A stretch of DNA of 64,000 nucleotides from Rhizophagus irregularis (taxonomy: Eukaryota; Glomeromycota; Glomeromycetes; Glomerales; Glomeraceae), in the NCBI RefSeq assembly GCF_026210795.1, contig NC_089445.1:310001-374000 (forward strand), in the 5' to 3' direction. Below, piece after piece: positions 7,222 to 31,017 of this stretch. Under the pieces are notes generated by a model. That model saw nothing but the letters and a program-made list of their open reading frames with translations, ran no database searches and was not told the origin of the DNA. The first letter of the stretch is position 1. Each line of letters opens with the position of its first letter. The position numbers were made by a program, and so were the translations under genes.

Positions 7222-8250
7222 TCATTTTGATGCTTTATATTTTATAAACCACCTTGTAGCTTCTTCTAAATTTTTATTAGTTCCAATGCCATCTCTATAA
7301 CATTTTGCAACTGAATCCATTGCTCTTTCAATACCATTATTGGCTAATTTCAAATACCATTCAGCTTTTCTATTCTAATAAAATCCTTTTTCTTCATTTT
7401 TTGGAATATGTTTTCTATCATTATAGTAATTTGCTACTTTATATTGACTGTAAGAATGACATTTTTCTGCAGTTTTTAAATAAAATTCAAAAGCTTTGTC
7501 TTCATCTTTAAAAGTACAAATCCTGAAATAACAACACCTTCCCAATTCATTTAATGCAAGCTTATATTCTCCTTCAGCAGATTTTAAATACAATTCAAAT
7601 GCTTTCTTCATATCTTATATAACATCATATCCATACTGATAACAAATACCTAATTCAAATTTAATATTTCCTCCTTCTGATGATTTTGAATACAATTCAA
7701 TTGCCTTACTATAATCAATTTTCGTACTAAATATATCATAACAATCATAATAACCTATATAATATTGTGATACACTATCTCCTTCTTCAGCATTTTTAAT
7801 GTGTAATTTGTAGTTATTTCTTATATATAAAATAATTTCTCTATAAAGGAATATGAAATAAAAATATTGTGCAGTTATTCCATTTAGTTCTTTAATATTC
7901 ATCATGAAATTTTTAGGTAGATCGATCCATGTAATTCCACATGGATTAGTTCATACATTCCCATATAACCTACATCGAATTTTGTGGACCTACGCATAGG
8001 GTATTTGGAAAATATTAGAACTATTCGGATTTCCACATATTTCCACAATATTCGATGTGGATTTCTATGTGGATTTTTATCGCTATTGCAGAAAGTAATG
8101 GTCTCATTTTTTGACTAAAAAAACTTTTCTAATATTTCTCTTTGATTATTTTTGACAGCATCAGAAAATATTTCAAGCGGTTTAATTTCATCAACTTTAC
8201 TTCCAATTCCATGTTGAATCTTATTGTTTTCTTCAAAACTATCACAATCA
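7222..8250 (-). pseudogene. Broken Sel1-like repeat gene (SLR2)
   Basis: It is closely related to SLR3 (9547-10863) but decayed. From the 3' end, the terminal repeat AKCYRDGIGTNKNLEEATRW is preserved and ends at a TGA at 7222-7224. The repeat before it has lost about 38 residues, and a TAG stop interrupts FY-NRKAEW near 7377. One further frame break lies near 7615. The gene is then split by a MITE (7904-8084). Beyond that, the N-terminal domain is truncated after HGIGSKVDEI and fused directly to a scrap of the leader near 8220-8250. Its upstream region still carries the conserved SLR 5' element (about 8272-8310). It is a dead copy. Confidence 0.8.
7904..8084. mobile_element. MITE inserted in SLR2 (family with AAATTTTTAGGTAGATCGAT end)
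   Basis: The left end reads GAAATTTTTAGGTAGATCGA and the body contains AGAACTATTCGGATTTCCAC. Related copies lie at 8414-8643 (inverted) and 12557-12777. The boundaries are set by comparison with the uninterrupted coding sequence of SLR3, where TCATCATTG is continuous. The right end is shorter than in the sister copies, so this copy is truncated. Confidence 0.7.
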
Positions 8251-17502: not shown

Positions 17503-18654
17503 ATGTCTTATAACCTTGATATTAATAAAAACGAAAGTAACAATAAAATTATTAATAAAGTTTTCAAAGAATTGTTACAAGAATTATATGTTGTTTTTTT
17601 AGATATAGAAGATCATAATACTCTTCGATTAAATGAATTTATACATAATACTTTACTTGAATATGACTTAGACCCTAAAAACGTATTTGAAACTATGAAA
17701 ATTAATTCTCAACCAGATTTTAGTTATTCAAGTTTAATTGGAATTTTTTATCAATATGGAATTGGGTGTGAGCCAGATGAAATTAAGGCATTTGAAATAT
17801 TTTCTAATGCCGTTAAAAATAATAAAAAAGAAATAATAAAAAAATTTTCTTTTGATCAAAAAAATGAACCAATTACTTTTTGTGACGATAATATTAAAGA
17901 GTTAAATGAAATAATTACACAATATTTTTATTCTTTATTTCTTTATAAAGATATTATTTTAAATAAAGCGAAAAACTACAAACTTTATGTTAAAAATGCT
18001 GAAAATGGAGATTCAATATCACAATATTATTTAGGTAATTATTATTATAACAAAATAGATTATAATAAAGCAATTGAATGGTATTCAAAATCATCGGAAG
18101 GAGGAAATATTAGAGCGATATATAAATTGGGTAATTGTTATTATTATGGATATGGGGTTATGAAAGATGAAAAGAAAGCACTTGAATTATATTTAAAGTC
18201 TGCAAAAGGAGGATTAAGTTATGCATTACGTAGCGTGGGAGATTGTTATTATTATGGACGAATTATGAAAGATAGAAGTAAAGCTTTTAAATGGTATTTA
18301 AAAGCGGCAAAAAAAGGTGATTTTCAATGTCAATATTTAGTAGCAAAGTGGTATCATAATGATGGAATACATGATCCAAAAAACGAAGAAAATTGGTTTT
18401 ATTGGAATAGAAAAGTTGCAATTAATGGTAATATTCATGCTCAATTTGAATTAGCGGAATATTATCTTAACAGCAATTCTATTAATAAGAATGAAAAGAA
18501 AGCATTTAGGTGGTATATGAAATTAGCTAACGATAATGAACCAAGAGCACTTTATATAGTTGCTAAGTGTTATAGAGATGGTGTTGGAACTGACAAAGAT
18601 TTAAAGGAAGCTATAAAATGGAGTGTAAGATATGAGGAATCAAAGGTCTTTTGA
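17503..18654 (+). CDS. Sel1-like repeat protein (SLR4)
   Basis: This 383-residue protein is the shortest intact family member. Its leader is only about 20 residues (MSYNLDINKNESNN). It is followed by the LLQELYVVFLDIE helical segment, the degenerate unit SSLIGIFYQYGIGCEPDEIK, and about six Sel1 repeats ending AKCYRDGVGTDKDLKEAIKW. It lacks the C-terminal tail (PQITLNDFLNGSDID type) of SLR5-SLR8. It is a single exon, with TTCGAT before the ATG. The 3' flank holds the conserved ATATTAATAAATAAAGGATA block. It is likely a non-enzymatic scaffold; function unknown. Confidence 0.9.
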   Translation: MSYNLDINKNESNNKIINKVFKELLQELYVVFLDIEDHNTLRLNEFIHNTLLEYDLDPKNVFETMKINSQPDFSYSSLIGIFYQYGIGCEPDEIKAFEIFSNAVKNNKKEIIKKFSFDQKNEPITFCDDNIKELNEIITQYFYSLFLYKDIILNKAKNYKLYVKNAENGDSISQYYLGNYYYNKIDYNKAIEWYSKSSEGGNIRAIYKLGNCYYYGYGVMKDEKKALELYLKSAKGGLSYALRSVGDCYYYGRIMKDRSKAFKWYLKAAKKGDFQCQYLVAKWYHNDGIHDPKNEENWFYWNRKVAINGNIHAQFELAEYYLNSNSINKNEKKAFRWYMKLANDNEPRALYIVAKCYRDGVGTDKDLKEAIKWSVRYEESKVF

Positions 18655-18768
18655 AGATTAATGCATAAATTAATTTTATGAAATTATACCTTTGAATTTG
18701 AAAATATTATTGGGAGTTTTTTTTTATTTCATTACTATAGGATTTGTAGAAACAGGCATTTATTTATA

Positions 18769-19580: not shown

Positions 19581-19617
19581 AAGAAATTTGTGCAACCATA
19601 TGTAACATCACACAAAA
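19581..19617 (+). promoter_or_regulatory. Conserved SLR 5' element (SLR5)
   Basis: AGAAATTTGTGCAACCATAT is followed by GTAACATCACACAA, ending about 65 bp before the chosen start at 19683. An upstream in-frame ATG at 19566 lies before this element and is therefore unlikely to be the start. Confidence 0.55.
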
Positions 19618-19682: not shown

Positions 19683-21065
19683 ATGACTTATAACTTTGAT
19701 GATAACGATACCGAAAATAATGATTCTACTTCCATTATTGAACCTATTGATTCACAAAATAGTATTTTTTCACTCAAATCAAATATTGTTAAATATGAAT
19801 CCCCTTCCTTCAAATTTAATATTACGACGAGTCCTTCTTTAATAATTAATAATATACTGTTCTTTAACAATTTTATTACAAAATTTTTTAAAGAGTTATT
19901 AAAAGAATTATATACACTTCTTTTAGATATAGAATTTAAAGATGATACTGATATATTAAATATATTTATAAATAATTTTTTATTTGATTATGATTTAGAC
20001 CCTAAAAATGTACTCGAAATCATGACCAGTAATTCTCAAAATATTTTTTATTATTCAAGTTTAATCGGATTTTTTTATCAAAATGGAATCGGATGTGAGG
20101 TTGATGAAATTAAAGCATTTGAAATATTTTCTAATTCAGTTAAAAATAATCAAAAAGCGTTATTAAACCACTTCACTTTTGATCAAAAAAATGAAAGCAT
20201 TAGTTTTTGCAATGATGATATTAAAGAGTTGAATGAAATAATTACACAATATTTTTATTCTTTATTTCTTTATAAAGATATTATTTTAAATAGAAGAAAT
20301 AATTATAAATTTTATATTAAAAATGCTGAAAAGGGAGATTCAGCATCACAATATTATATAGGAAATTATCATTATATCAAAAAAGATTATGATAAGGCGA
20401 TTGAATGGTATACAAAATCATCAGAAGGGGAAAACATTAAAGCAACATATAGTCTGGGTGTTTGTTATAATTTCGGACTTGGTATTAAAAAAGAGGAAAA
20501 GAAAGCATTTGAATTATTTTTAAAATCTGCGGAAGGAGGATATAAATATGCATTAAATGTAGTGGGATATTGTTATTATAATGGATATGGTATTTTAAAA
20601 GATGAAAATAAAGCCTTTGAATTTTATTTAAAAGCTGCAAAAAAAGGTCATGGTACAAGTCAATATTTAGTAGCAAATTGGTATAATGATGGAAAACATG
20701 TTTTAAGAAATGAAGAAAAAGGATTTTATTGGAATAGAAAAGCTGCAATAAATGGTAATGTTAATGCACAATTTGAATTAGCAGAATATTATATTGATAG
20801 TTCTATTAATAAAAATGAAAGAAAAGCATTTAAGTGGTATTATAAATTAGCCAATGAAAATAAAGTAAGAGCAATTTATTTAGTTGCAAAATGTTATAGA
20901 GATGGAATTGGAATTGATAAAAATTTAAAAGAGGCTACAACATGGATTAAGAAATACGAATTATCAAAGTTTTTTGGAAAACCACAAATTACCTTAAATG
21001 ATTTTTTGAATGGCTCAGACATTGATGCTTTTTCGATATCACCGTTTACAAGAATGTGTTATTAA
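19683..21065 (+). CDS. Sel1-like repeat protein (SLR5)
   Basis: This protein is 460 residues long from the ATG at 19683. An in-frame ATG at 19566 would add 39 residues, but it precedes the conserved 5' element, and MTYNFDDND matches the N-termini of the sister genes. Order: Asp/Asn/Ser-rich leader, the TTSPSLIINN motif shared with SLR6 and SLR8, the FFKELLKELYTLLLDIE helical region, the degenerate Sel1 unit SSLIGFFYQNGIGCEVD, a RNNYKFYIKNAEKGDSASQY first repeat and about five more, then the tail PQITLNDFLNGSDIDAFS. It is a single exon with no catalytic domain. It is probably a protein-interaction scaffold. Confidence 0.9.
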   Translation: MTYNFDDNDTENNDSTSIIEPIDSQNSIFSLKSNIVKYESPSFKFNITTSPSLIINNILFFNNFITKFFKELLKELYTLLLDIEFKDDTDILNIFINNFLFDYDLDPKNVLEIMTSNSQNIFYYSSLIGFFYQNGIGCEVDEIKAFEIFSNSVKNNQKALLNHFTFDQKNESISFCNDDIKELNEIITQYFYSLFLYKDIILNRRNNYKFYIKNAEKGDSASQYYIGNYHYIKKDYDKAIEWYTKSSEGENIKATYSLGVCYNFGLGIKKEEKKAFELFLKSAEGGYKYALNVVGYCYYNGYGILKDENKAFEFYLKAAKKGHGTSQYLVANWYNDGKHVLRNEEKGFYWNRKAAINGNVNAQFELAEYYIDSSINKNERKAFKWYYKLANENKVRAIYLVAKCYRDGIGIDKNLKEATTWIKKYELSKFFGKPQITLNDFLNGSDIDAFSISPFTRMCY

Positions 21066-22284: not shown

Positions 22285-22326
22285 GAAACTTGTACAACAT
22301 GTACAACCATATGTAACATGACACAA
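22285..22326 (+). promoter_or_regulatory. Conserved SLR 5' element (SLR6)
   Basis: ACTTGTACAACATGTACAAC is followed by CATATGTAACATGACACAAG, ending about 52 bp before the ATG. The TTGTACAAC half is repeated here. Confidence 0.55.
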
Positions 22327-22377: not shown

Positions 22378-23760
22378 ATGACTAATAATAACATTAATAA
22401 CAATAATAACGAAGATAAAAACAATACTTCTATTATCGACTCCATCTCATTCGAATCAGATATTGTAAATTATGATTCCTCTTCATTTAAATTTAATATT
22501 ACAACAAGTCCTTCCTTAATTGTTAATAATATACTATCCTTTAATAATTTTGTTACAAAATTTTTCAAAGAGTTAATGCAAGAATTATATGTTACTCTTT
22601 TAAATATAGAATTTGAAGATGGGGATTATACTACTGATGATAAATTTAATATATTTATAGATACTTTTTTATTAGAATATGATTTAGATCCTAAAAATGT
22701 ACTTGAAATTATTATAAGTAATTCTCAAAATATTTTATGTTTTTCAAGTTTAATTGGATTTTTTTATCAACATGGAATTGGGTGTGAGGTTAATGAAATT
22801 AAAGCATCAAACATATTTTCTAACACAATTAAAAATAATCATAAAGAAATTTTAAGTCAATTTTCTTTTGATCAAAAAAATAAACCCATTAGTTTCTCCA
22901 ATGATGATATTAAAGAATTAAATGGAATAATTGCACAATATTTTTATTCTTTACTTCTTTATAAAAATGTTATTTTTCATAGAATAGATAATTACAAATT
23001 ACATATAAAAAATGCTGAAAAAGGAGACGATGTATCACAATATTATATAGGTAATTGTTATTGTTATGGTATAAACACAAAAAAAGATTTTAGTAAAGCA
23101 ATTGAATGGTATTCAAAATCATCAGAAGGAGGAAATATCAAAGCTATGTGTGGATTAGGATGTTGTTATGAGTATGGATATGGGGTTATAAAAGATAAGA
23201 AGAAAGCATTTAAATTATATTTAAAGTCTGCTGAAGGAGGATATAGACGTGCATTATATGAGTTAGGGAATCGTTATCATTATGGAAATTGTACTTCTAA
23301 AGATGAAGATAAAGCTTTTGAATGTTATTTAAAAGCTGCAGAAAAAGGTCATAATTCTAGTCAATATTTAGTAGCAAACTATTATTATGATGGAAAAGAT
23401 ATTCCAAAAAATGAAGAAAAAGGATTCTATTGGACCAGAAAAGCTGCAATTAATGGCAATGCAGATGCTCAATTTAAAATGGCAGAATATTATATCAACA
23501 ATTCTATTAGTAAGAATGAAAGCAAAGCATTCAAGTGGTATATGAAATTAGCTAAAGAAAATAAGTTAAAAGCAATTTATTTAGTTGCAAAATGTTATAG
23601 AGATGGCATTGGTACTGATAAAAATTTAAAAGAGGCTACAACGTGGATTAAAAAATATGAATTATCAAAGCCTTATTTTAAACCGTATATCACCTTATAT
23701 AAGTTTTTGGATGGCGCAGATATTGATGTATCTTCAATAGCGTCACATACAAGAATGTGA
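22378..23760 (+). CDS. Sel1-like repeat protein (SLR6)
   Basis: A 460-residue single-exon protein. Its Asn-rich leader (MTNNNINNNNNEDKN) leads to the NYDSSSFKFNITTSPSL motif, the FFKELMQELYVTLLNIE helical region and the degenerate unit SSLIGFFYQHGIGCEVNEIK. About six Sel1 repeats follow, with a CYCYGINTKKDFSKAIEWY first unit, ending AKCYRDGIGTDKNLKEATTW. The C-terminal tail YITLYKFLDGADIDVSSI corresponds to that of SLR5, SLR7 and SLR8. The start follows TTCAAT. It is likely a cytosolic scaffold; no more specific role can be read. Confidence 0.9.
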   Translation: MTNNNINNNNNEDKNNTSIIDSISFESDIVNYDSSSFKFNITTSPSLIVNNILSFNNFVTKFFKELMQELYVTLLNIEFEDGDYTTDDKFNIFIDTFLLEYDLDPKNVLEIIISNSQNILCFSSLIGFFYQHGIGCEVNEIKASNIFSNTIKNNHKEILSQFSFDQKNKPISFSNDDIKELNGIIAQYFYSLLLYKNVIFHRIDNYKLHIKNAEKGDDVSQYYIGNCYCYGINTKKDFSKAIEWYSKSSEGGNIKAMCGLGCCYEYGYGVIKDKKKAFKLYLKSAEGGYRRALYELGNRYHYGNCTSKDEDKAFECYLKAAEKGHNSSQYLVANYYYDGKDIPKNEEKGFYWTRKAAINGNADAQFKMAEYYINNSISKNESKAFKWYMKLAKENKLKAIYLVAKCYRDGIGTDKNLKEATTWIKKYELSKPYFKPYITLYKFLDGADIDVSSIASHTRM

Positions 23761-23907: not shown

Positions 23908-24779
23908 ACTGAACTTTAAAGCTTTGGAAGATATGAATGAAATTTGGATAACTTCCTAACATTATTCTTGGCTTACAGATAACATGTTTGTCACAAGTAA
24001 ATTATTATTTTAAAAGGATATTATTGTAAGGGAATTTTTACAACTAAGTTCATCCTGATAATTTTGCAACAATACGTGATATGAATTACGATCATTTTTT
24101 TGACATCATAAATTAAAAATCTTATCCGACGAGAAATAATAACAAATTGTGTTTTTATAACTGAAGGCATAATTCCGATAATGTTTGCGTAACATTTTAT
24201 AATTATATACCGGTACGTGTTACATTTAACAAATAAAATTGTACTAACAAAATTCGGACTTACGGTACTCTCAAGTACAATAGTCTACAAGAATCACATT
24301 CAGTTACTTAATAGTTAAATGATAAAAATGAAAGCAGCAATAATTCATAATATTTGTAAATATTACTATTATTTTCTTTTTTTTTAGATCCTTTTGACCC
24401 ACCCGTATCAATTTTTCAAATAATCTGGGATTTTTTTTTTCTTTACATGATTTTAAGTTTTTAACATCATGATATAAACCATTTAATCAATGTACTATTA
24501 TCATAATAATAATAATAGTATCTTTCAATTGTACTAACTGACTTTATTGAATTTATCGCATTCATTTTCTGGTATTTTTCCAAAAATAAATGTCCTTAAA
24601 TAATTTTACCTGCCTTATTTTTAATTTGACGGAGATCAAACTTCAGTGTTTCGGGCGAAACTAATACTTAGTTTCATCTAAAATGATCTACAAATGCATT
24701 CCAAAGTTAGGTTTGGAAGAATGGCTTGATTTTTGAAAATAGTTTTACCCGAAACACTATCGTACTATTTGTTATACAA
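23908..24779. other. Intergenic region upstream of SLR7
   Basis: No gene. Contains a short hAT-like inverted element, annotated separately (24644-24759), and A/T-rich sequence. Confidence 0.4.
24644..24759. mobile_element. Short hAT-like inverted element, 116 bp
   Basis: The left CAGTGTTTCGGGCGAAACT pairs with the inverted right end TAGTGTTTCGGGTAAAACT. The ends look like hAT termini, but I see no matching 8-bp flanks, so the call rests on the inverted ends alone. Confidence 0.5.
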
Positions 24780-24806
24780 ACAAAAGAAATTTGTACAACC
24801 ATACAC
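24780..24806 (+). promoter_or_regulatory. Conserved SLR 5' element (SLR7)
   Basis: AAGAAATTTGTACAACCATA lies about 45 bp before the SLR7 ATG at 24850. The second half (GTAACATCACAC) is missing here. Confidence 0.5.
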
Positions 24807-24849: not shown

Positions 24850-24874
24850 ATGTTTGTTAACTTTGAAGACAATA
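24850..24874 (+). pseudogene. Detached 5' end of SLR7 (first eight codons)
   Basis: ATG in the TTCAAT context is followed by MFVNFEDN, then the sequence runs into the inverted end of a transposable element at 24875. Left alone, the frame ends at TGA after MFVNFEDNTLLTT. The missing continuation resumes at 27522. Confidence 0.8.
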
Positions 24875-25239
24875 CTTTGCTAACAACTTGAAATTTTTTA
24901 AATGTATTGTAAAATTAATATTACAGTACATTATATACAAACCATGTTAAGATACTCGTTATTGGTCTTGTAGGGACATAGTACAATAGTTAGTATAACA
25001 TCAATTGTAATATTAATTTATTCATGTATATTTAATATAAATTATAGCAAATTATTGTAAAATATATTGTAAAATTTAATTATGGTAACTTTAATTATAA
25101 AATACATTTCCTCTCATTGGTATTTAAAAAAAAGAAAAAAAGCGAAACATTAATAAAACGTTTTGCCAAAAAAAAATCATTTCATCAAAATCTTGCTAAA
25201 AGAATTAAATTCAAAAAAAAAATATAGTCCTGATTTCTT

Positions 25240-26800
25240 TTTCCATGCGCCCAGACCCGTCTAAAAAAAAAAATTTGAAACGTCAATATATGTTTCATTA
25301 TAATAAATAAACTAAGACGAAAAAAAACTTACTATAACAAAATCTTACGCATCCAAAGAGACTCGAAGAAATATCTATAAAAAAAGAACTATTAATATCT
25401 GTTCGTTAAATAAAGGAAAATTTTAAAAACTTACAAATTGTCACATCCAGGAGACCAAAAAGCCGTCTAAAAAAGAAAAAGAAATAAGTAACCATTTTTA
25501 AAAGACGGAATAAAGAAATTTAAAAAAAATAATACTCCACCAAAGTCCCGCGTCTAAAGAGCTGAAGAACCGCCTAAAAGAAGAAAAATTGAAGCATTAG
25601 AAAATGTTTTGTTAAATAAACGTTTCATCAAAGAATAATTCAAAAAAATCTCTACCCTACCGAATTGTTACATGTCCAAAGACTCAGTCATCTAAAAAAA
25701 GAAAAAATCAAAACATTAGTATATGTTTCGTTGTATATGTTTCGTTGAAATATAGATACTTCTGATTTCTTACCGAATCTCACGTGTCTGAAGGGCGAAA
25801 CGAAGTCAAAATCTAGAAAAAGAAAAATTAGTATCAAAGATGTCATAAAAAATAAATATGCAATAAAAACAAAATCTTTCTTCTGCTAAAACCTCAAAAA
25901 AAAGAAGCATTGAAACCTACAAAGAAGAAGGACAACTATTAGTAATTAAGACAAAAAGATAAAATAAGAATAGAACACACTCACCTAGAAATCGATAAAA
26001 CCTAAAAAAGAAACATGGAAGAGCCACCAAAACCTAAAAGTAAAAAGAAATCGAAGTCTACATCTACAAAAAAAAGAAAGGAGAAAGTTAATAGCAAAGA
26101 CAAAAAATATAAGAAAAACCAGAAGAACTACCATTTTCAGGGACGGAAGATCGGCAAACCCTAAAAGAAGAGAAAACTAAGAAAAACGAACTGTTAATAA
26201 AGTTCGTTAAAATAAAATAATCAAAGAAAAAAAATTAAGAATTACCATGCTGAAATCCCATTTCCAAAGAGACCTTAGAGAAACGCCTAGATGAAGAAAG
26301 TAAATGAACTGTTAGAAAATGTTCATTAAAACAAAAACAATTAAGGAAAAAAATTTAACTAGCTTACTGAAATTTCACGTCCAAAGAGACCAAAAGAACC
26401 ACCTAAAAAAAAAACTAAACCGTTAGAAAATGTTTCATTAAAATAGATAAGAAAAAAAATTTATCACACAAAGAACCAAGTCGTCTAAAAAAAGTTAAGA
26501 AAATGAGCTATTAGAAATTGTTCATAAAATAAAAACAATTAAATAAAAAAAATAATGAAAAACTTGCCAAAATGCCATGTCCAAGTAGACCGTAAGAACC
26601 ATCTAAAAAAAAAGAAAAAATTGGTAAAATAGATAATTAAGATTTAAGAAAAAAAATTTTCACACCATATTCCCACGTGTCTAAATACTTGAAGTCTAAA
26701 AAAAATTAAGAAAAATAACTATTAGAAATCGTTCGTTAAAATGAAACAATTAAAAAAAAGACAAACTTACCAGAAATTTGCACCTAAGGAGGGAAACGCT
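25240..26800. repeat. Array of about 13 diverged units of 100-120 bp with splice-like borders
   Basis: Each unit has, on the plus strand, a CTTACC-like box, a core around ACGTCCAAAGAGACC with GAAGAACCACCTAAAAAAAG, then TTAGAAAATGTTTCATTAAA and an A-rich tail. On the minus strand a core of about 32-45 bp is bordered by TTTTTTTAG (3' splice-like) and GTAAG or GCAAG (5' splice-like). Good examples are near 25430, 25770, 26363, 26565 and 26766. Two or three units near 25880-26130 are irregular. The cores do not keep a common length modulo 3. It may be a decayed exon array, a minisatellite or a transposon-internal repeat. Confidence 0.6.
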
Positions 26801-26814
26801 TAAGATTTCTTCAA

Positions 26815-27060
26815 CAAAAAGTGCGAGAGAAGCGGGAAAAGAGAAAGAAAAGAGAAGGGAAATGTAAAAGTAAAGGGAAAAGGGAGAAAAGAAAAGGAAA
26901 GAACAAGGGAGAGATGAAAGAAGGATACGAAGGGAAGTAAAAGGGTGAACGAAGGAAAAGGGAAGAATGAAAAAAAAAGTAAAAAAAAGTTTAAAAGAAA
27001 AAAGAAAAGTTTAAAAGAAGAAAAAAAAAGTTTAAAAGAAAAAAAAATGATCGAAGTCAT
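26815..27060. repeat. Purine-rich (GA) tract
   Basis: About 245 bp are almost purely A and G on the plus strand, with GGGAAAAGAGAAAG and AAAAGTTTAAAAGA words repeated at the right end. The minus-strand frame that spans it encodes only Phe/Leu/Ser/Pro low complexity and is not a credible gene. Confidence 0.75.
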
Positions 27061-27521
27061 TGAACTGCGGATTATATCACATGCACGTGATACATAATTT
27101 TATATAAATAGGGCCATAGGGGTTTCTCCGAAATTTGAATTCTTTTTTTTTATATTTTTAATATATAAATTTTACGAAAAGCCCGTAGGGTTTTTAATGT
27201 AATTAGATTATACACCTAGTATATATTAACGTTAATGGTAATTAGATTATATTATAAATAATTAATTGTGAAATTCATTATACAATATTTTGTACAATAT
27301 ACACATAAGTAAAATCTTGTGAAACATTGTAAAAAATTATAAGACTCATTGAAAAATGTATCAGAATTATATATTTTACAATTGAATGTGAATAAATTAA
27401 TATTAAAAATGGATTGTTAGAAATATTGTACTATATATTTTTTCAGATTTAAAATACCTTGTACAAGGCTTGTACAAGGATCGCACAATGCATTATGAAA
27501 ATTTAGCATTGTTAGCAAAGT

Positions 27522-28814
27522 AATAACGAAAATAACAAAAATAATTCTATTATTGAATCATCAAATAATGTAAAATCCGAATCCTCCTCATTAAAATTTG
27601 ATATTATTGCAAAAAATCCTTTAATTATTAATAAAATTTTCAAAGAATTGTTACAAGAGTTACATGATATTATTCTTTTAAATATAGAAGATTATACTAC
27701 TGACCAATTAAATGAGTTTATATATAATTTTTTACTTGAATATGATTTAGACCCTAAAAATGTATTTGAAATTATGACAAATAATTTACAACCCATTTTT
27801 TATTATTCAAGTTTAATTGGAATTTTTTATCAATATGGAATTGGATGCGAGGTTGATGAAATCAAAGCATCAAAAATATTTTTTAATACTGTTAAAAATA
27901 ATCAAAAAGTGATAGTACCAGATCAATTTACCTTTGATATTAGTTTCTTTGATATTAAAGAGTTGAATGAAATAATTACACAATATTTTTATTCTTTATT
28001 TCTTTATAATGATATAATTTTAAATAAAAGAAATAATTACAAATTCCATATTAAATATGCTGAAAAGGGAGATTCAATATCACAATATCATATTGGTAAT
28101 TGTTATTTTTATAATATAAACGCAAGACGAGATTATAATAAAGCAATTGAATGGTATTTAAAATCGTCAGAAGGAGGAAACATTAAAGCAATGTATAGAC
28201 TAGCATATTGCTATGCTTGTGGATATGGGGTTAAAAAAGATGAGAAGAAAGCATTTGAGTTGTATTTAAAGTCTGCTGAGGGAGCCGGAGGGTATAAACA
28301 TGCATTATGGGTAATGGGAAATTATTATTATTATGGACTTGGAATTTTAAAGGATGAAAATAAAGCATTTGAATTTTATTTAAAAGCTGCAAAAAAAGGG
28401 CATAATATAAGTCAATATTTAATAGCAAATTATTATTATGATGGAAAATATATTCCAGAAAATAAAGAAAAATGGTTTTATTGGAATAGGAAAGCTGCAA
28501 TTAATGGCAATGCAGATGCTCAATTTAAACTAGCAGAATATTATACCACCAATTCTAGCAATAAAAATGAAAGCAAAGCATTCAAATGGTATATGCAATT
28601 AGCTAATAAAAAAAAGTTAAAAGCAATTTATATAATTGCAAAATGGTATAGAGATGGCATTGGTACTGATAAAAATTTAAAAGAGGCTACAACATGGATT
28701 AAAAAATATGAATTATCAAAGTCTTATGGGAAACCACAAATCACCTTAAAAAATTTTTTGAATTGCTCGGACATTGATGTTTCTTCAATAGAGCCGTATA
28801 GTACAAGCATGTGA
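27522..28814 (+). CDS. Sel1-like repeat protein SLR7, 5' end displaced by a transposon
   Basis: The frame is open for 430 codons from 27522 with no suitable ATG near its start; it begins NNENNKNNSIIESSNN. With the eight codons at 24850 the ancestral protein was about 438 residues. Order: Asn/Ser leader, IIAKNPLIIN, the FKELLQELHDIILLNIEDY helical region, the degenerate unit SSLIGIFYQYGIGCEVD, then about six Sel1 repeats with a small SAEGAGGYKHAL expansion, and the tail PQITLKNFLNCSDIDVS. No internal stops have accumulated, so the insertion is recent or a shortened or rescued transcript is made. The TAG just upstream (27513-27515) sits in GTTAG of the element end and could act as a splice acceptor. 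Confidence 0.75.
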   Translation, partial: NNENNKNNSIIESSNNVKSESSSLKFDIIAKNPLIINKIFKELLQELHDIILLNIEDYTTDQLNEFIYNFLLEYDLDPKNVFEIMTNNLQPIFYYSSLIGIFYQYGIGCEVDEIKASKIFFNTVKNNQKVIVPDQFTFDISFFDIKELNEIITQYFYSLFLYNDIILNKRNNYKFHIKYAEKGDSISQYHIGNCYFYNINARRDYNKAIEWYLKSSEGGNIKAMYRLAYCYACGYGVKKDEKKAFELYLKSAEGAGGYKHALWVMGNYYYYGLGILKDENKAFEFYLKAAKKGHNISQYLIANYYYDGKYIPENKEKWFYWNRKAAINGNADAQFKLAEYYTTNSSNKNESKAFKWYMQLANKKKLKAIYIIAKWYRDGIGTDKNLKEATTWIKKYELSKSYGKPQITLKNFLNCSDIDVSSIEPYSTSM

Positions 28815-29550: not shown

Positions 29551-29593
29551 AGAAATTTGTACAACTTGAACATCCATATGTAACATGACACAA
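29551..29593 (+). promoter_or_regulatory. Conserved SLR 5' element (SLR8)
   Basis: AGAAATTTGTACAACTTGAA is followed by CATCCATATGTAACATGACA and CAA, ending about 48 bp before the ATG at 29641. The in-frame ATG at 29608 is closer to the element and not matched by the sister genes. Confidence 0.55.
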
Positions 29594-29640: not shown

Positions 29641-31017
29641 ATGACTGATGATAGCTTTAATAAAAATAATAACAAAAATAAAAATAATACTTCTATTTTT
29701 TCATTTGAATCAAATATTACAAATTATGATTCCTCTTCATTCAAATTCAATTTTACAACAAGTCCTTCATTAATTGTTAATAATATACAATTCTTTGATA
29801 ATTTTATTACAAAATTTTTCAAAGAATTAATTCAAGAATTATATTTTATCCTTTTAAATATGGAATATGAATATGGAGATTATAATTTTAATAATGTTAA
29901 ATTAATTATAAATACTCTTTTATTAGATTATGATTTAGACTCTAAAAATGTACTTGAAATTATGACAAATAATTCACAAAATATTTTTTGTTATACAAGT
30001 TTAATCGGAATTTTTTATCAATGTGGAATTGGATGTGAGGTTGATAAAATTAAAGCATTAAATATATTTTTTAATGCTGTTAAAAATAATCAAAAAGCAA
30101 TATTGGACCAATTTTCTTTTGATCAAAAAAATGAAACTATTTGTTTTCGTAATGATAGTTTCTATAATAATGATATTAAGGAATTAAATGAAATAATTAC
30201 ACAATATTTTTATTCTTTACTTATTTATCAAGATATCATTTTCCATAGAAAGGATAATTACAAATTACACATAAAAAATGCTGAAAAAGGAGATGATATA
30301 TCACAATATTATGTAGGTAAGTTTTATTGCATCAAGCAAGATTATAATAAAGCAATTGAATGGTATTCAAAATCATCAGAAGGCGGAAATATTAAAGCAA
30401 TGTTTGAATTAGGTGTTTGTTATGAGCATGGGTACTATGAGGTTATAAAAGATGAGAAAAAAGCATTTAAATTTTATTTAAAATCTGCTGAAGGAGGGTA
30501 CAAATGGGCATTATATAGAGTTGGAAATTGTTATCATTTTGGAGAATGTAGTACTTTTATAGATGAATACAAAGCTTTTGAATTTTATTTAAAAGCTGCA
30601 GAAAAAGGTCACGTTTATAGTCAATTTTTAGTAGCAAGGTGGTATTATGATGGAAAATATATTCCAAAAAATGAAGAAAAAGGATTTTATTGGAATAGAA
30701 AAGCTGCAATTAATGGCAATATAGATGCTCAATTTAACATGGCAGAATATTATATTAACAATTCAATTAATAAGAATGGAAGCAAAGCATTCAAGTGGTA
30801 TATGAGATTAGCTAATGTAAATATTTTAAAAGCAATTTATATAGTTGCAAAATGTTACAGAGATGGCATTGGAACCGATAAAAATTTAAAAGAGGCTATG
30901 GAGTGGATTAGAAAATATGAATTTTCAAGGTTTGGTAAAAACCCACAAATCAACTTAGATCATTTTTTGAATGGCTTAGATATTGATATTTCTTCACTAC
31001 CATTATACACGTTTTAA
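29641..31017 (+). CDS. Sel1-like repeat protein (SLR8)
   Basis: This protein is 458 residues long from the ATG at 29641 (MTDDSFNKNN, TTTCAAT context). An in-frame ATG at 29608 would add 11 residues. It shows NYDSSSFKFNFTTSPSL, the FFKELIQELYFILLNME helical region, the degenerate unit TSLIGIFYQCGIGCEVDKIK, a longer loop before DIKELNEIITQYFYSLL than in its sisters, about six Sel1 repeats and the tail PQINLDHFLNGLDIDISS. It is a single exon, apparently intact. It is most similar to SLR6 in the leader. A scaffold or adaptor role is inferred from the repeats only. Confidence 0.9.
   Translation: MTDDSFNKNNNKNKNNTSIFSFESNITNYDSSSFKFNFTTSPSLIVNNIQFFDNFITKFFKELIQELYFILLNMEYEYGDYNFNNVKLIINTLLLDYDLDSKNVLEIMTNNSQNIFCYTSLIGIFYQCGIGCEVDKIKALNIFFNAVKNNQKAILDQFSFDQKNETICFRNDSFYNNDIKELNEIITQYFYSLLIYQDIIFHRKDNYKLHIKNAEKGDDISQYYVGKFYCIKQDYNKAIEWYSKSSEGGNIKAMFELGVCYEHGYYEVIKDEKKAFKFYLKSAEGGYKWALYRVGNCYHFGECSTFIDEYKAFEFYLKAAEKGHVYSQFLVARWYYDGKYIPKNEEKGFYWNRKAAINGNIDAQFNMAEYYINNSINKNGSKAFKWYMRLANVNILKAIYIVAKCYRDGIGTDKNLKEAMEWIRKYEFSRFGKNPQINLDHFLNGLDIDISSLPLYTF

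Follow-up and report, generated by a model that had tools for sequence, protein, structure and literature searches.

A gene that is split by an inserted element and nevertheless keeps its downstream reading frame open raises the question of how recently the insertion took place, and whether a protein is still made. Such a gene lies in the stretch of Rhizophagus irregularis DNA considered here (the window, 64,000 nucleotides, C17:310001-374000, with C numbers denoting contigs), where a 2,646-bp element sits inside a 438-codon Sel1 gene; both gene and element were read in one 146.7-Mb, 32-contig genome assembly. The element belongs to a small family of non-autonomous DNA transposons that was active recently and is of an already known type, and a jumping element in a Sel1 gene is an ordinary sort of event, here mapped to the base. 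We consider it highly probable that this was a recent insertion with a 2-bp TA duplication, probably moved in trans, which disrupts the gene, and that the frame is open for lack of time to decay.

The interrupted Sel1 gene

The features of the insertion, as read from the sequence, are the following:

24850-24874, plus strand: codons 1-8 of the Sel1 gene, including the start codon, and the opening base of codon 9
24873-24874: left TA target duplication
24875-27520, plus strand: non-autonomous DNA transposon, 2,646 bp, with A-rich degenerate internal repeats
24875-24886, plus strand: left terminal inverted repeat, CTTTGCTAACAA
27509-27520, minus strand: right terminal inverted repeat, the same 12 bp on the opposite strand
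27521-27522: right TA target duplication
27525-28814, plus strand: residual 429 codons and stop codon of the Sel1 gene, with Sel1 repeats (PF08238)

The element begins directly past codon 8. Codons 1-8 occupy 24850-24873, codon 9 is divided between 24874 and 27523-27524, and the other 429 codons (27525-28811) run without any internal stop to a TGA at 28812-28814, which gives 8+1+429 = 438 codons. When the flanks are joined without the element and one TA, they read MFVNFEDNNNENNKNNSIIESS, which is colinear with MTYNFDDNDTENNDSTSIIEP of the neighboring paralogue E, and this paralogue is unbroken at the position equivalent to the insertion. The first-pass annotation of this DNA had proposed an element with inverted ends and a TA duplication after codon 8, a frame restored by removal of the element plus one TA, and a 438-codon gene whose downstream part lacks stops, all of which is borne out.

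Both ends of the element carry the 12-bp inverted repeat as a perfect match, and the inverted arms that flank the insertion cover 24873-24910 and 27485-27522. With at most one mismatch, the repeat occurs twice in the window, at the two element ends. In 100 shuffles the chance mean was 0.49, and two matches were reached in 7 of them. By themselves the 12-bp ends are therefore near chance level, and we accept them as real because the same convergent end pairs recur elsewhere in the genome.

A Pfam scan of the 429 residual codons places the protein in the Sel1 family (PF08238, E 6e-37, five stretches). Within the genome, the proteins most similar to it are those of three uninterrupted neighbors, listed here together with the upstream remnant of the split gene:

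19683-21065, plus strand: paralogue E, 72% amino acid identity, upstream motif at 19588-19615
22378-23760, plus strand: paralogue F, 70% amino acid identity, upstream motif at 22299-22326
29641-31017, plus strand: paralogue H, 67% amino acid identity, upstream motif at 29566-29593
24763-24803, plus strand: first part, still present, of an upstream element also found at paralogue E (90% identity over 41 bp)

The earlier reading would have fallen if the two gene halves belonged to different Sel1 paralogues. For the 5' flank, five matches other than itself were found in the genome (41-120 bp), including one upstream of paralogue E (41 bp, 90%), and by synonymous distance paralogue F is slightly closer than E to the downstream half. 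As both the 5' flank and the downstream half point to paralogue E, they likely derive from the same paralogue. A second copy of either half was not found in the assembly by searches that scored the best candidates only, so that no second allele is apparent. Elsewhere in the array, the tblastn match at 7363-7902 (minus strand) contains two in-frame stops, one TAG and one TAA, and represents a decayed member, and the TGA of the member at 17533-18657 is its own stop codon.

The element family and its target duplications

The element has at least 65 matches in its own genome, among them the near-full-length sisters C11:2342831-2345474 (97%) and C17:2004211-2006875 (96%) and many partial copies. 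In a three-way alignment with these sisters (2,604 ungapped columns), 12 substitutions and 6 indels are private to the window copy, which diverges from the two by 0.8% and 2.3%. Tandem Repeats Finder reports three short arrays inside the element. The only open reading frame (ORF) of at least 60 amino acids that lies fully within it is an 86-amino-acid frame of low complexity, rich in F, L and S, which is why we regard the element as non-autonomous. A degenerate end pattern with up to three mismatches found 82 matches in the genome against 19 for the reversed control, and another such pattern found 104 against 33, with 100 of the 104 examined; a sizeable share of these matches is due to chance. 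Recent activity of the family is also seen in two copies of 3.3-3.4 kb, L013 (C13:1576984-1580394) and L014 (C13:910766-914031), which are 97.6% and 99.7% identical over two aligned blocks and of which the latter splits a kinase gene. No description of this insertion or of the 12-bp end was found among the literature titles and excerpts consulted, where the end sequence itself was not used as a search term.

Copies were counted as complete when both ends lie within 7.1 kb. All 13 of these have matching 2-bp duplications (5 TA, 5 TT, 2 AA and 1 TG) and a right end that reads TTGTTAGCAAAG, and a 3-bp duplication matches in none of the 13. The count omits three distant end pairs: two have TA at either side, C16:874401/887441 (13 kb apart) and C3:5354726/5394637 (40 kb apart), and one has AA, C23:3636281/3672888 (36 kb apart). 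It also omits the ends L016, L051, L052 and L054-L057, for which no partner was recognized, and the locus L053, in which no end was found. Also not counted were L038 (C18) and L039 (C13), in which a transposase lies behind a related left end; their 12 flanking bases are identical and they may be one duplicated stretch. The ends at C16:874401-887441 perhaps belong to one copy with a large nested insertion.

A TA target is the defining trait of Tc1/mariner elements, and the TA duplications of the window copy and of four more of the 13 complete copies resemble it. It is nevertheless extremely unlikely that this is a Tc1/mariner or another strictly TA-targeting transposon, as TT, AA or TG is found at 8 of the 13 copies and as a relative with shared ends carries a CACTA/Plavaka-like transposase. 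The earlier description of the element as TA-flanked thus holds for this copy and fails as a rule for the family.

A candidate transposase

The relative in question, L010, is a complete 7.1-kb copy (C22:3633070-3640165) with related ends and a degraded transposase. Its end regions match the element with 75% identity over 212 bp (E 3e-34) and 68% over 256 bp (E 1.5e-12). The ORF fragments on its minus strand are of a single transposase group in this genome; one fragment of 122 amino acids leads to 149 places, and four fragments match the group profile (hmmsearch, best 1.8e-56). We compared an alignment of this group (10 sequences, L010 absent, the L038 protein forming one row) with a Tnp2-type alignment, cut out from 4 of 6 PF02992 loci, and with a Plavaka-type alignment of 6 PF18759 places. 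The hhalign probabilities were 95.1% (E 3.1e-8) and 95.2% (E 2.9e-8), respectively, and the controls gave 0.2% for a Sel1 alignment and 0.1-0.5% for ten column-shuffled alignments (five of each). Thus a copy that shares the ends of the element, L010, appears to carry a homologous DDE transposase, as expected for a member of the wider CACTA/EnSpm-Plavaka clade (CMCT).

In an excerpt of PMC12730594, this clade is given target duplications of 2-5 bp and CA..TG termini "in most cases", though not universally. The 2-bp duplications of our 13 copies fall in that range, and in this respect, and in its short inverted ends and the relationship of its transposase profile to the Tnp2-type proteins of this genome, the family resembles CACTA/EnSpm (CMC) elements, from which it differs in lacking CACTA or CA..TG ends and 3-bp duplications. 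With Plavaka it shares the fungal host, the 2-bp duplication (2 bp in PlavakaA and 2-3 bp in PlavakaB according to the same excerpt) and a related transposase profile. It differs from Plavaka in its ends, CTTTG..CAAAG instead of the TGT..ACA or CATCA..TGATG listed there. Moreover, the Plavaka family score is not reached, since PF18759 has no match at E<=1 in the 10 L010 fragments or in 4 ORFs of the longer relatives; it has at least 123 places in the genome (123 of 180 candidates scored), none of them within C22:3633070-3640165. The PF02992 family score is likewise not reached in these ORFs, and none of the matches listed (150 of 393 candidates scored) lies at the C22 relative. As the termini differ and both Pfam models fail, we think that the engine is probably near to these groups, CACTA/EnSpm-Plavaka-related, without being Plavaka or EnSpm proper.

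Two further observations concern these proteins. One member of the C22 transposase group, L037:1108-2505 (minus strand), has a weak BAH-like match (PF01426, E 4e-5, under the curated threshold) ahead of the region alignable with CACTA-type transposases, an arrangement that seems unusual. L009 (4056-4316) and L010 (6199-6645, plus strand) share a second frame with a Gly/Arg-rich tail (..GRGREGFGRRH in L010).

Copies inside other genes

Two more of the 13 complete copies lie in coding exons, and their flanks read through when one duplication is removed. L014 interrupts a protein-kinase exon (...GIDE/FIKDTIYNA... across the flanks), and a copy at C1:5393554-5397724 interrupts a short-chain dehydrogenase exon (...NPVKG/NYANTKL...). 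A further copy, at C4:2950913-2955108, is found inside an apparent kinase intron (GTAAGT...ATCAG). Pfam recognizes the kinase pieces in the right flank at C13 (E 1.1e-12) and in the left flank at C4 (E 4.8e-14), as well as the 5' piece of the dehydrogenase at C1 (E 2.1e-10). Of the three exon pieces that abut an element directly, the one scanned, L088:1-327, matches no Pfam family. An excerpt of PMC8647823 describes CMC-EnSpm elements as under-represented beside most subgroups of expanded signalling genes, which speaks against a preference of the family for such genes.

State of the gene and alternative explanations

With the 12 private substitutions taken as an upper bound of the age, the residual frame would be expected to have gathered 5.9 substitutions and 0.43 stops, and the probability of finding no stop is 0.65. 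A young insertion therefore needs no retained function to account for the intact downstream frame. The ratio of nonsynonymous to synonymous substitution rates (dN/dS) of the split gene versus E, F and H is 0.40, 0.55 and 0.56, compared with 0.42-0.61 among these three, which gives no sign of a long decay. The first-pass annotation had left a choice between a recent insertion and a transcript that still makes protein; the recent insertion stands, given the few private substitutions and the restorable frame, and the spliced full-length product is not supported.

The upstream region of the gene has to be considered separately. A 28-bp motif, TTGTACAACNNTATGTAACATNACACAA, is found with at most three mismatches at 5 places in the genome, compared with 1 for the reversed control. 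Four of these lie upstream of subfamily members (19588-19615, 22299-22326, 29566-29593 and C8:4366731-4366758); the remaining one precedes the broken member at 7.4-7.9 kb by 375 bp. The motif is nearly private to this Sel1 subfamily, and the dispersed contig 8 copy has it too; it may be a promoter or 5' untranslated region element of the subfamily. The split gene lacks part of the motif: of the upstream element that it has in common with paralogue E, the second part (TGTAACATCA in E) is missing between 24803 and 24804. The motif alignment was made from 8 paralogues, and a 17-nt core was counted within 500 nt upstream of 11, being present with at most three mismatches in 9 and with at most two in 8 of them. 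Random 500-nt stretches of the window contained it at up to two mismatches in 0 of 200 cases and at three in 7 of 200. At C20:3257213 the best core match has 5 mismatches; there the protein match starts late, and the 500 nt may miss the start of the gene.

This raises the possibility that the Sel1 gene was already dying before the insertion, which then was a neutral event in a pseudogene. The core is kept in most paralogues, and the best match of the split gene, with 6 mismatches, is at the level of random stretches. However, the paralogue at C17:265046 has an open frame and also lacks the core (best 5 mismatches), so that absence of the core is no marker of a dead gene, and the split gene shows no frame damage and a dN/dS like that of its paralogues. 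The loss of the motif part is unusual and makes an active gene slightly less plausible, without proving a dead one, and we regard prior decay as unlikely. Somewhat less likely still is an N-terminally truncated Sel1 protein made by a restart of transcription inside or after the element. The 429-codon open frame with its five Sel1 stretches would allow it, and all transposable element superfamilies of R. irregularis have expressed members, CMC-EnSpm being among the most represented (PMC8647823, in excerpt). Against this stand the damage to the upstream motif of the gene, now also 2.6 kb distant, and the youth of the insertion, which accounts for the open frame without any truncated product.

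Considerably less probable than either is that the element acts as a new intron, pairing the TTAG of its right repeat with a GT shortly before the insertion point, which would let a near-full-length protein be made. Indeed, a junction of GTTAAC at 24856 with the TTAG at 27515 would leave a frame of 434 codons open (MFQSNNENN...), and this donor with that TTAG, or with the AG at 27659, is the only source of long in-frame products. All three recognized exon copies have an in-frame GT..TTAG solution within 25 nt, since GT dinucleotides of matching phase were found by eye at the other two, GTTAAA and GTGGGA, which lie 10 and 25 nt, respectively, ahead of where the left duplication ends. The chance of such a GT at 3 of 3 sites was estimated from AT-only targets in eight coding stretches as ~0.012 within 30 nt (914/4,042 sites, 0.226) and ~0.076 within 60 nt (1,651/3,892 sites, 0.424), values that are only suggestive, as the window size was picked after the sites had been seen. 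Donor sites prefer G at +5 and A at +3. All three donors are poor, since +5 is not G in GTTAAC and GTTAAA and GTGGGA lacks the usual A at +3. The predicted intron would measure 2.66 kb, and the intact paralogues are unbroken at the insertion position. Donor and acceptor do not lie at the two ends of the segment, as they would in a spliceosomal intron or introner, because the donor would fall in the host exon. The earlier suggestion that a transcript makes the full-length protein by splicing out the element is therefore unsupported: the left repeat contains no GT, and GTTAAC is the sole in-frame donor that fits TTAG. In soybean, the CACTA-type element TgmR*, inserted in an intron of a MYB gene, is removed from the transcript along with that intron (PMC4219821, in excerpt), and the C4 copy in its seemingly genuine kinase intron is a parallel; in contrast, the Sel1 insertion is exonic and is known from sequence alone. 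Splicing-out would be possible on paper, and the case for it is weak. We give equally little credence to the more general idea that the right inverted repeat might serve as a portable 3' splice site, with exon copies partly tolerated as ready-made introns that take their donor from the upstream exon.

Proposed course of events

We therefore return to a recent, disruptive insertion. A non-autonomous cut-and-paste transposon would have entered a tandemly duplicated Sel1-repeat gene at codon 9 and duplicated a TA. Most likely a CACTA/EnSpm-Plavaka-related transposase of the C22 type mobilized it by acting in trans on the shared ends. The gene would thereby have been disrupted: unspliced translation from its own ATG reads MFVNFEDNTLLTT and ends after 13 residues at a stop inside the element, and the function of the gene has very probably been lost. 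Judged from the divergence of the sister copies, there would have been too little time for the downstream frame to decay. At best, an N-terminally truncated protein could arise from a new promoter within the element.

Several points weigh against parts of this account. No Pfam transposase model hits the ten L010 ORF fragments, where only sub-threshold matches are seen, or the four ORFs of two longer relatives, and for this reason the superfamily was placed by comparing profiles built from small alignments (10, 4 and 6 sequences), among which the Tnp2-type and Plavaka-type ones reach only 62.6% with each other. The family ends in CT..AG and not in the CA..TG of most of the wider clade. At the private rate of the element, about three indels (3.0) are expected in the residual frame and none is seen; either the bound overestimates the age of the insertion, or the A-tracts of the element gain indels more readily, or the frame is still under selection. 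Finally, the comparison of the split gene was made within one assembly.

Significance

A CACTA/Plavaka-related non-autonomous family in an arbuscular mycorrhizal fungus has, in our reading, recently inserted into genes, including members of the expanded Sel1 and kinase families, and its interpretation as TA-only is corrected. The Sel1, kinase and dehydrogenase exons together with the kinase intron provide four sites at which presence or absence among strains, excision and splicing can be tested.

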